A DNA stretch of 64,000 nucleotides from Micromonospora carbonacea (GTDB lineage: Bacteria > Actinomycetota > Actinomycetes > Mycobacteriales > Micromonosporaceae): contig NZ_JACHMZ010000001.1 of NCBI RefSeq assembly GCF_014205165.1, positions 434,001 through 498,000 of the forward strand, given 5' to 3'. A model generated the notes under the pieces. That model saw only the letters and a list, made by a program, of their open reading frames with translations. It made no database searches and was not told the origin of the DNA. Both the position numbers and the translations under genes were made by a program. This document shows positions 14,233 to 26,710 of the stretch, in pieces (within the stretch, counting starts at the first letter, position 1; the number at the start of each line of letters is the position of its first letter).

Positions 14233-14808
14233 TCACAGGTGCCGGGGCGTGATCCGGGCGATCGACAGGTTCACCGGGAACGGCTCGCCGGTGTCGACGA
14301 ACTTCGTCCAGCGGCCGGTTTCCGTGTAGACCTCGTCGACCGGGTCGATCCGGTGGGTGTGGACGGCCAGCTCGCCGTCGCCGGTCTCGATCCGCCAGTA
14401 GAACGGGATGCCGGCCTGCGCGTAGAGGGCCGGCTTGAGCACCCGGTCGATCGAGCGGGTGCTCGGGGAGACGACCTCGACGGCCAGCACCACCTCGTGC
14501 GGCGCGTACCGCGACGGCGAGCGCCGGGCGGCCTCCGCCGTGGTGACCAGCACGTCCGGGATGAAGCAGCGGGTCCGGTTGATCCGCACCTCGACGCCCT
14601 GGGTCACGTCGTACTCGTCGGGGCACTCCTCGACGAGGGCCGCCATGAGAAGACCGGCGATGGTCTGGTGGATGCGGGTGGGGGAGGGGGACAAGAGCAA
14701 CACTCCGTCGAGCAGTTCGCGGCGGCGACCGTCCTCGGGCAGCCCGTCGAGGTCGTCGGTCGTCCACCCGCCCTCGGGCGGGAAGTCGCTCTGCAACGCG
14801 GCGGTCAT
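14233..14808 (-). CDS. Uma2 family endonuclease-like protein (DUF820)
   Basis: A 191-residue protein of the Uma2/DUF820 family, which has a restriction-endonuclease-like PD-(D/E)xK fold. Seen here are the [28 protein letters not shown] start, then FIPDVLVTT with the metal-binding D, and [36 protein letters not shown], which contains the E-x-V core and the downstream K. The function of these proteins is unsettled despite the name. The ATG at 14808 has AAGGA upstream. It is inverted between the SnoaL-like gene and nuoI, inside the second block that splits the nuo genes. Confidence 0.82.
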
Positions 14809-23981: not shown

Positions 23982-24317
23982 TCAGCCGTTGCGTGGCGCG
24001 TACATGATGACGGCGACCCCGACCAGGCAGATGGCCGCGCCGACGACGTCGTAGCGGTCGGGCCGGAACCTGTCGACGACCATGCCCCAGGCGAGGGACC
24101 CGGCGACGAACACCCCGCCGTACGCGGCGAGGATGCGGCCGAAGTTCGCGTCGGGCTGGAACGTGGCGACGAAGCCGTAGAGCCCCAGCGTGACCACGCC
24201 GCCCGCGATCCAGAGCAGCCCCCGGTGCTCCCGCCAGCCCTGCCACACCAGCCAGGCCCCGCCGATCTCGGCGAGGGCGGCGAGCAGGAACAGCAGGATC
24301 GAGCGGGCGACCGTCAT
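23982..24317 (-). CDS. YnfA family small membrane protein (UPF0060)
   Basis: A 111-residue protein with four hydrophobic helices and almost no loops. [65 protein letters not shown] carries the YnfA/UPF0060 signature, a family related to small multidrug resistance exporters with a conserved membrane glutamate (E in LAEIGGA). YnfA has been linked to drug efflux in enterobacteria. The ATG at 24317 lies 7 bases after TACGGT (minus strand) without a Shine-Dalgarno, suggesting a leaderless mRNA. It is divergent from the CRISPR leader region. Confidence 0.9.
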
Positions 24318-24346: not shown

Positions 24347-24375
24347 TCAGCGGTAGTTGGTGTGGAGTTGCCGAA
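24347..24375 (-). repeat. Left direct repeat: relic of the yajQ 3' end
   Basis: AGCGGTAGTTGGTG at 24349-24362 repeats exactly at 25804-25817, where it is the last codons and stop of yajQ. On the minus strand the left copy also encodes TNYR then TGA. Flanking TGGAG and TGCCGAA blocks also match the yajQ end with two small gaps. The two copies bracket the CRISPR leader and array. Confidence 0.75.
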
Positions 24376-24672
24376 CGGTCGTGGGGGTAGGGGTGGGTGT
24401 GCGATCCGGTTCACCGCCTACTCAGGCAGAGCCGAGCGGGCCGGGGCCGGCATGGTCGTTCGTCCTGTGGGGCGCTCCACCTTGTCGCCTTGGCCCCCTT
24501 CTCCGTCGTGGGGGTCGGCGTAGGACGGGATGGCGGGGGCATGGTGTGCGCCAAGCGCGACGAGTCAGCGGTACCTTGTCACCAGTAGACGGGCGGCACG
24601 GGCGGAGAGATCTTGGTCAGGCAAGTGAATGAAATCGACGTTGTTGATCTTTAGCGGCCCAGGTCAGGAAGT
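24376..24672 (+). promoter_or_regulatory. CRISPR leader region
   Basis: Non-coding stretch just before the first repeat. The last ~60 bases are visibly AT-richer than the surroundings (AAGTGAATGAAATCGACG, TTGTTGATCTTTAG) and end CAGGTCAGGAAGT directly at the first repeat. Repeat polarity and the decayed repeat at the opposite end both place the leader here. The exact promoter is not resolved. Confidence 0.7.
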
Positions 24673-25676
24673 CTGCTCCCCGCGCACGCGGGGGTGATCC
24701 CGGTGGTCTCCAGGGTGGCCGTGGAGTCCTCGTCTGCTCCCCGCGCACGCGGGGGTGATCCGGCTGCGGCGGCGTTCCCCGGCATCATCGAGGACTGCTC
24801 CCCGCGCACGCGGGGGTGATCCGCGCGCCCGCCTGGTCCTGGCGACCGGTCGCACCTGCTCCCCGCGCACGCGGGGGTGATCCGACCGACCCGACGTTCA
24901 GCATGAGCGGATTCCGCTGCTCCCCGCGCACGCGGGGGTGATCCCGTGTCGAGCGGCGTGCGGGCCGTGAGTGTCGGCTGCTCCCCGCGCACGCGGGGGT
25001 GATCCCATGAAATTGGGCGGGGACGACTGGACGGTCACCTGCTCCCCGCGCACGCGGGGGTGATCCCCGTCGACACCCGACATCGGGGCCCAGTCCAGAC
25101 TGTTCCCCGCGCACGCGGGGGTGATCCGTCGACGGTGGTGGGGGCGGTGCGGGTCAGCAGCTGTTCCCCGCGCACGCGGGGGTGATCCGGGATGAGATGG
25201 CACGCACGTTGCCGCCGATGCCTGTTCCCCGCGCACGCGGGGGTGATCCCGGGCCCGGGCAGGGGGCAAGCTTCGACATCGACTGTTCCCCGCGCACGCG
25301 GGGGTGATCCCGAAAGTCTCAGCCCTCGGCTCGGTCGGTGAGACTGTTCCCCGCGCACGCGGGGGTGATCCCTGCCCGTACGTGAGCGCCAGGTCGGTGC
25401 CCCGCTGTTCCCCGCGCACGCGGGGGTGATCCTAGCTGGGCCGCCGCATGGGCGTATCCGGCTCACCTGTTCCCCGCGCACGCGGGGGTGATCCGTGGTT
25501 TTCGGGCACCGAGCAACCCGGCGTTCGTTGTTCCCCGCGCACGCGGGGGTGATCCCACGGTCCGGTCTACGTCCGGTGAGGGCGGGCCCTGTTCCCCGCG
25601 CACGCGGGGGTGATCCCACCGCTTCTTCCGGTAGGGCCCGGCCGTGGGCCTGTTCCCCGCGCACGCGGGGTGGTCC
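24673..25676 (+). CRISPR. Type I-E CRISPR array, 17 repeats and 16 spacers
   Basis: Repeats of 28 bases start at 24673 and recur every 61 bases (spacers of 33 bases), with one 34-base spacer before 25528. The core is TCCCCGCGCACGCGGGGGTG ending ATCC, a short palindrome typical of type I-E arrays read in this direction. The first seven repeats begin CTGCTCC. The remaining ten read TGTTCC at that point; the one at 25528 has T as its first base. The last repeat, at 25650, has lost one G and has a GGTCCC ending, marking the old, leader-distal end. No cas gene lies in the window, so processing would need cas genes elsewhere. I could not identify spacer targets. Confidence 0.97.
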
Positions 25677-25783
25677 CACCCGGTAGCGGACCCAGGCCGT
25701 CAAAAGGCCGGAGGAGGGCGACCAACGACGACCAGAGCCGCCGAGGTTCGCCCAGCTCACACGGCGCGGCTCGCTGCCCGGCT

Positions 25784-25803
25784 AAGAGCCCGACCGGGCC
25801 CTT
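25784..25803 (-). terminator. Probable terminator of yajQ
   Basis: On the minus strand AAGGGCCCG pairs with CGGGCTCTT across a 2-base loop, beginning inside the yajQ stop codon. One G-T pair. It lies inside the right boundary of the CRISPR-containing insert. Confidence 0.5.
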
Positions 25804-26296
25804 AGCGGTAGTTGGTGAACTGGAGCGCGATGCCGAAGTCCTCGCTCTTGAGCAGGGCGATGACGGCCTGGAGTTCGTCCTTCTTCTTGCCGGTGACCCG
25901 GAGCTGGTCGCCCTGGATCTGCGCCTGGATGCCCTTCGGGCCCTCGTCGCGGATCTTCTTGCTGATCGCCTTGGCCTTGTCCGAGTCGATGCCCTGGACC
26001 ACCTTGGCCTCGATCCTGAAGACCTTGCCCGAGGCGCGCGGGTCGCCCGCGTCCAGGGCCTTCAGCGAGACGTTCCGCTTGACCAGCTTCTCCTTGAAGA
26101 CGTCCAAGGCGGCCAGGACCCGCTCCTCGGTCTCCGCCTGGAGCCTGATCGCCTCGTCGCCCGTCCAGGAGATCTCCGCGCCGGTGCCCCGAAAGTCGAA
26201 CCGCGACGCGAGCTCCTTCTCCGCCTGGCGGAGGGCGTTGTCGACCTCCTGCCGGTCGACCTTGCTCACGATGTCGAACGACGGGTTCGCTGCCAT
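25802..26296 (-). CDS. yajQ: YajQ family nucleotide-binding protein
   Basis: A 164-residue cytoplasmic protein with the YajQ double ferredoxin-like fold. It reads [33 protein letters not shown] at the N-terminus, [13 protein letters not shown] in the middle and [29 protein letters not shown] at the end, matching the family at full length. In Xanthomonas a homologue binds cyclic di-GMP and acts with a regulator; whether this one does is not shown. The window also holds a GGDEF-EAL protein. AGGAG lies 7 bases before the ATG. Its last 16 bases are duplicated on the far side of the CRISPR array. Confidence 0.95.
25804..25817 (-). repeat. Right direct repeat within the yajQ 3' end
   Basis: AGCGGTAGTTGGTG, identical to 24349-24362. 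Here it is the genuine end of yajQ, starting in the stop codon. Confidence 0.8.
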
Positions 26297-26446
26297 GCTG
26301 ATGCTCCTGCTGTCCGGCGGTGGTCAGTGCACGTACGCGCCGCCAACCAGCGGCACGACCCCCTGACGGTACCCGGTTGCGCTCGCCCCGGGAGCAACCG
26401 CTATCCTTGGCTCCGCTGCCACGCCACGGCGCGGCGGTGACGCCCT

Positions 26447-26530
26447 GGCGGGTTGCCCGAGCGGCCAATGGGAGCGGACTGTAAATCCGTCGCGAAAGCT
26501 ACAGAGGTTCGAATCCTCTACCCGCCACCA
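26447..26530 (+). tRNA. tRNA-Tyr (GTA)
   Basis: The acceptor stem GGCGGGT (26447-26453) pairs with ACCCGCC (26520-26526), discriminator A and an encoded CCA at 26528-26530. The anticodon GTA is at 26481-26483 in the loop CTGTAAA. The long variable arm GTCGCGAAAGCTAC is typical of bacterial class II tRNA-Tyr. The T loop is TTCGAAT. A terminator hairpin follows at once. Confidence 0.96.
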
Positions 26531-26537
26531 GGTGCAA

Positions 26538-26577
26538 AACGGCCCCTGAACAGCAGGAATGCTGATCGGGGGCCGTT
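26538..26577 (+). terminator. Terminator after tRNA-Tyr
   Basis: AACGGCCCC (26538-26546) pairs with GGGGCCGTT (26569-26577), and a nested CAGC/GCTG stem lies inside. CTCGTTG follows. Confidence 0.8.
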
Positions 26578-26710
26578 CTCGTTGAGCCGGTGAAGGTCCG
26601 CCGAGTCCAGCCGCTCGGGGCTGCTTCCGTCAGGGCGGCGAGATCAGCGGCGCTTGCGCATGATGACCCCTTCGCTTCCATCCGGCATGCGGTCGGCGCA
26701 TCCTGCTGCC

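Follow-up and report, generated by a model that had tools for sequence, protein, structure and literature searches.

AICEs combine int, tra and rep components, with int adjoining the attachment site (att), and in the parts of the published account used here their tyrosine recombinases target mostly the 3' ends of tRNA genes (PMC3218068). The portion considered of a second survey places AICEs in protein-coding genes as well (14/51 sites), and describes empty sites in sister strains, decayed copies between direct repeats, and truncated integrases (PMC9513070). The locus analysed here, a CRISPR array beside the gene yajQ, can be compared with both accounts. An element of the pSAM2 type lies at yajQ in a relative (G060), with a tyrosine integrase by the att core, RepSA, FtsK-like and GntR genes, and cores in direct repeat; the copy under study is without these genes, and its target is the end of a protein-coding gene, whereas mostly tRNA targets are given in the parts used of PMC3218068. 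With the decayed AICEs in the portion considered of PMC9513070 it shares flanking direct repeats, a relative with an empty site and a protein-coding target; it differs in that what is left between the repeats is a CRISPR leader plus array and in that the integrase is gone altogether. The Vibrio CRISPR-Cas systems on genomic islands, judged by the titles and abstract openings of two papers (PMC6360697, PMC5109276), offer a further likeness, CRISPR DNA inside an integrated mobile island, but there, by the titles, the cas genes travel too, whereas here the array and leader stand alone.

Our search of the literature, judged by titles and abstract openings, found no matching case, and no paper of the library searched names both yajQ and integrase (as whole words). 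A decayed, att-flanked remnant of an AICE is termed a CIME. Casposons, in turn, make a duplication of about 14 bases at the 3' end of a gene, encode Cas1 and have terminal inverted repeats. The present locus also has a duplication of about 14 bases at a gene 3' end, but it differs from a casposon in that there is no cas1 in the insert and no terminal inverted repeats were found among the matches listed (25 of 28 pairs).

The duplicated end of yajQ

The window, that is, the whole 64-kb stretch of DNA analysed, corresponds to positions 434001-498000 of contig C1 in a 7.53-Mb genome (G000) from the genus of M. haikouensis. A CRISPR leader (24363-24672, plus strand) and a type I-E-like array (24673-25677, plus strand; 17 repeats of 28 nt and 16 spacers of 33-34 nt) are placed between two minus-strand genes, with the leader on the left. 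These genes are an ORF named ynfA in the sequence-only reading (23982-24317), which is chromosomal and lies on the far side of the insertion, and yajQ (25802-26296; DUF520, PF04461), the 3' end of which we propose as the attachment site. A tRNA-Tyr (26447-26530, plus strand), the sole match of the Rfam search, lies beside yajQ and outside the element.

Leader and array are bracketed by two exact copies of the 14 bases AGCGGTAGTTGGTG, at 24349-24362 and 25804-25817, just where the sequence-only reading had located them. Allowing two mismatches gave the same two copies and no third in the window (dinucleotide shuffles averaged 0.23). Under a first-order Markov model, the probability of this 14-mer is 3e-6 in 1500 positions, and that of a match in 2 kb to any 14-mer of the terminal 60 bases of yajQ is 5e-4; on these figures, chance is a poor explanation for the duplication. 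As that reading had also proposed, on the minus strand the left copy, CACCAACTACCGCTGA (24347-24362), encodes TNYR-stop with a TGA stop, and the right copy, CACCAACTACCGCTAA (25802-25817), is the true and present end of yajQ, with a TAA stop. The 16-base form CACCAACTACMGSTRR occurs twice in the genome (7.5 Mb), both times at this locus, and the idea that the same repeats might surround other arrays was not borne out, since the core occurs nowhere else.

In the closest relative found, M. haikouensis DSM 45626 (G147), ynfA and yajQ are joined through a single copy of the 14-mer, with no array and no left relic. The two regions of similarity, at about 95% identity, overlap in exactly these 14 bases, where one ends and the other starts; on the ynfA side, the identity to the window is 95% over 1192 bases and 97% over 363. 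An array-free strain with one yajQ end and no relic is what the sequence-only reading had predicted, and this site supports its proposal that DNA was inserted at the 3' end of yajQ, rebuilding the gene and leaving a copy of the target behind. The end of yajQ in G147, CCGCTGA, is that of the left copy in the window, whereas yajQ in the window ends in CCGCTAA. By these stop codons, TGA on the left as in G147 and TAA on the right, the native end seems to survive, displaced, in the left copy, and the right copy seems to have arrived with the insert. A foreign yajQ end imported together with the array was considered and rejected: over its final 200 bases, yajQ is 98% identical between the window and G147, with no increase in divergence there.

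The two ends of the inserted segment

On the left, similarity of the leader to two other loci of the same genome (83% to G000:7072957-7073318 and 77% to 6628460-6628633) begins in both cases exactly at 24363. Given this common starting point, the outer part of the leader is cut at the 14-mer, while the paralogous loci run on with unrelated sequence. Blocks of TGGAG and TGCCGAA near the left copy had been taken for further remains of yajQ; they prove to be leader sequence. Their minus-strand form, CGTTCGGCAACTCCA, recurs in the outer leader or a leader fragment at three other loci of G000 and one of G147 (L002, L003, L004 and L289), none of which is at yajQ and in all of which the string continues into other sequence. 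The loci at 7.07 and 6.63 Mb also share with each other a duplicate of about 570 bases that includes the outer leader (L002 1683-2248 and L004 1495-2061, 93% identity). At 6.63 Mb the match to the window is limited to the outer leader, and the gene seemingly beside it is one that we take to be IS110-like.

On the right, window positions 25692-26582 align with a relative (G013) that likewise has ynfA next to yajQ, the two separated by about 1.2 kb of other DNA. DNA downstream of yajQ was then compared among 108 distinct relatives, drawn from 159 other genomes of the genus, and about a third of them share some 140 conserved bases, which we term the D-box, beginning at the yajQ stop codon. A first D-box model contained the window's sequence, and its E value of 1e-15 for the window, not being independent, was replaced by that of a model built from 16 D-boxes located away from yajQ to avoid circularity. 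This independent model places a D-box right after yajQ in 38/108 relatives and has one match in the 64-kb window, at 25692-25768 on the minus strand (E = 4e-8). A wider model, extending the match to 25688-25803, includes the window's sequence and is likewise not independent. The D-box of the window is divergent (28 bits, model positions 37-112 of about 144), which we count against the remnant interpretation developed below.

The core also occurs at 22 sites other than yajQ and the far copies, 20 of which were examined (the other two are in G037 and G035). A D-box adjoins the core at 16 of these 20 and is lacking at four; some of the sites lie in genomes whose own yajQ is without a D-box, and four of the 16 (within L268-L287) belong to a single genome, G084. 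The possibility that the D-box is an ancestral flank of yajQ was rejected on this basis, 16/20 core sites away from yajQ carrying a D-box and the model built from those 16 finding the D-boxes at yajQ. The D-box is thus the end of an integrative element and not just a flank of yajQ, and its occurrence with the core at 16 extra sites implies an element family that has spread over many sites or leaves solo ends.

These two ends bear on the suggestion, made in the sequence-only reading, that the array and leader moved as one transposing unit of about 1.45 kb. In its explicit form, a transposase or Cas1-like enzyme would have moved a 1441-base leader-array unit (24363-25803) into the end of yajQ, duplicating 14 bases of the target. 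The exact 14-base repeat, the clean single-copy site in G147, and leader homology to two other loci that begins exactly at the junction would all be expected from such an event. Against it, the right end of the segment is the end of an integrative element, which follows yajQ in the 38/108 relatives above in the absence of any array (1.0-6.9 kb downstream); the leader is truncated relative to its paralogs and has no defined end point; none of the remaining arrays of this genome has the core; and the two ends share no terminal inverted repeats among the same 25 of 28 matched pairs. We regard this transposition as very unlikely. A transposon- or casposon-type insertion with a 14-base duplication was rejected as a candidate, the right end of the insert being homologous to the DNA downstream of yajQ in relatives. 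What stands of the sequence-only reading is thus the insertion at the 3' end of yajQ; what is not supported is the leader-array unit that transposes, its yajQ-side end being an element end and the 14-mer the core of that element.

Cores, integrases and an intact element in other genomes

A second exact core on the same strand was found downstream of yajQ in 9/39 genomes with a D-box and in 0/68 others (Fisher p = 6e-5), the 39 being defined by the first D-box model and G000 and G147 having been searched too. It lies 1.8-13.8 kb downstream, in G021, G022, G031, G060, G075, G087, G097, G107 and G152; in G097 the yajQ end departs from the core pattern, and the far copy alone matched. Just inside the far core, the C-terminus of a tyrosine integrase, whole or partial, is encoded in eight of the nine, the exception being G152 (the query was taken from G022, itself one of the eight positive genomes). 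The motif CAGTT precedes the far core in all nine relatives; the far copy in the window is without it, and the leader abuts the core. ORFs between the cores vary from genome to genome. The remaining 30/39 D-box genomes have no second exact core, a further point counted against the remnant interpretation; in these the element may be longer, decayed, at a contig end or associated with another core type.

Looser copies were less informative. A first scan had found six D-box relatives with a further copy resembling the yajQ end 1.0-2.5 kb downstream, four of them exact, one with one mismatch and one with three; genomes with inexact second copies are G108 (one mismatch) and G016 (three mismatches). 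Loose copies, with two or three mismatches, exceed shuffled expectation both in genomes with a D-box (8 vs 1.6 expected, the window's own included) and in those without (15 vs 2.4), so they prove nothing, and it is the exact and one-mismatch copies that discriminate. In G157, which has no D-box, a core lies on the opposite strand 1.3 kb away. In G035 (L094), also without a D-box, two imperfect yajQ ends with two mismatches each lie 25 and 64 bases past the yajQ stop and are perhaps footprints of repeated integration.

The longest of these intervals, 13.8 kb in G060, has the following order from the yajQ side: core, D-box, GntR, FtsK/SpoIIIE, RepSA, Phage_integrase and core, with other ORFs as well. 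RepSA (PF20199) matches with E = 9e-118 on the first 450 of 618 residues and FtsK_SpoIIIE (PF01580) with E = 7e-11. The integrase has 432 residues (13025-14323 in L258; PF00589, E = 7e-17), and the core follows at 14374. Because integrase, RepSA, FtsK-like and GntR genes are found between cores, the G060 element at yajQ has the make-up of an AICE; the family search for replication and transfer functions covered this genome only. In the insert of the window, int, rep and tra genes are absent, the interval between the cores being taken up by leader, array and D-box. With the D-box, the second cores and the integrase pieces in relatives, the 14-mer is most readily interpreted as an attachment core.

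The same genomes weigh on the alternative of an ancestral array between yajQ and ynfA, lost from M. haikouensis by deletion between chance 14-base copies. Deletion between short direct repeats is common, and such a deletion would yield the site in G147 exactly. This account would have to accept a chance 14-mer that is improbable (3e-6, as above), and the same core duplication is present, with the element end, in nine other genomes; as the cores recur in this way, a deletion in G147 is the less likely course, and we consider the alternative very improbable.

Array, leader and origin of the segment

The 28-nt repeats at a spacing of 61 bases, the leader and a type I-E cas1 elsewhere in the genome fit an array of type I-E; its last repeat is degenerate. 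Seven leader-side repeats have CTGCTCC where the later ones have CTGTTCC (one TTGTTCC), as if newer acquisitions had copied a variant leader-end repeat. No convincing match to the spacers was found, the fetched loci giving partial matches of at most 21 bases. When the array as a whole was used as a query against phages and plasmids, matches reached up to 94-95% of the query, mostly at 60-80% identity, and these look to be driven by the repeats. The one cas1 match in the genome, a type I-E Cas1, lies at G000:6529840-6530637 (TIGR03638, 360.8 bits vs a cut-off of 215.6), and the array may be served in trans by the type I-E system of the genome, cas1 being the gene examined. Eleven more clusters of 2-27 related repeats are scattered over the chromosome.

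The position of five other arrays of G000 was compared with that in G147 through their ten flanks (3037 of 5400 flank bases compared). One array has both flanks on one contig at nearly equal spacing and seems to have kept its place; among the other four, two have one flank matched, one has none, and one has its flanks on two contigs. For those four, the comparison would seem neither to support nor to exclude movement. L294 (G000:5129841-5130523) holds a pair of short facing arrays, the leaders on the outside, and both flanks have about the same spacing in G147; this pair seems to be conserved in place.

No array was found beside yajQ by repeat pattern in the 108 downstream stretches (1.0-6.9 kb, median 3.0), nor, by a simple pattern, beside cores in 158 locus-strands. 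In a control on the window, the first array pattern recovered 16/16 steps and the second none, and the first pattern and a 20-mer test were those counted. The 20-mer test gave a single hit, in G070 (L112), where about 5.8 kb past yajQ three copies of one 20-mer recur every 59 bases; this sequence is unlike the I-E repeat of the window. As no array adjoins a core or D-box in any other genome examined, the association of an array with the element is known from one genome only.

From the two cores, the D-box, the single-core site in the nearest relative and the related elements, intact or decayed, at the yajQ site of other genomes, we propose, at a probability of roughly 0.84, that the array sits in a decayed AICE remnant at the yajQ attachment site. 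The last 14-18 bases of yajQ would be the attB of a Micromonospora AICE family, whose integration would swap the 3' end of yajQ for the element's own copy and leave the native end at the far side. An element of this kind would have integrated in the G000 genome and then lost its integrase, replication and transfer genes, leaving between the cores the D-box, the type I-E array, and a leader cut at the far core. Cores in direct repeat, an empty site in a relative and an element end inside the segment are the marks of a decayed AICE or att-flanked remnant; the integrase-side end of the element is missing in the window, which counts against this interpretation. We infer that an integrase made this particular insertion, and any order of deletion and array arrival is likewise a reconstruction.

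Within the AICE-remnant interpretation, the remnant may have come first, the array being brought in later by recombination unrelated to the integrase. This is a sub-question of that interpretation, and its likelihood, which we place somewhat below even, is not exclusive of it. Both ends of the element stop at the array segment, the D-box match ending in a GACGGCCTGG repeat and the far core following the cut leader, and the ORFs between cores differ among genomes, both of which favour a later arrival; the search for a source speaks against it, in that no close leader-array was found, the best leader elsewhere being 82-83% identical.

As for present mobility, the G060 integrase has no close relative in the G000 genome (best E = 5e-5, 29%), so movement of the segment by its own genome's means is now unlikely, and with a far core that lacks CAGTT, its excision or mobilisation by a helper integrase would be doubtful. 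A bolder version, in which helper AICEs still excise a minimal cassette without integrase (att core, leader-array, element end) and carry it between Micromonospora strains, its spacers being handed on without cas genes and plugging into resident type I-E systems, is in our judgement improbable.

A decayed remnant would account for a gene end that is duplicated on either side of a CRISPR array, and no new mechanism of transposition would be needed. It also indicates the 3' end of yajQ, with cores such as CACCAACTAC, as the place where a family of Micromonospora AICEs attaches. Remnants of conjugative elements between att sites would offer a concrete route by which orphan arrays are gained and lost between close species and, if a helper element can still move the segment, sets of spacers would travel apart from the cas genes.
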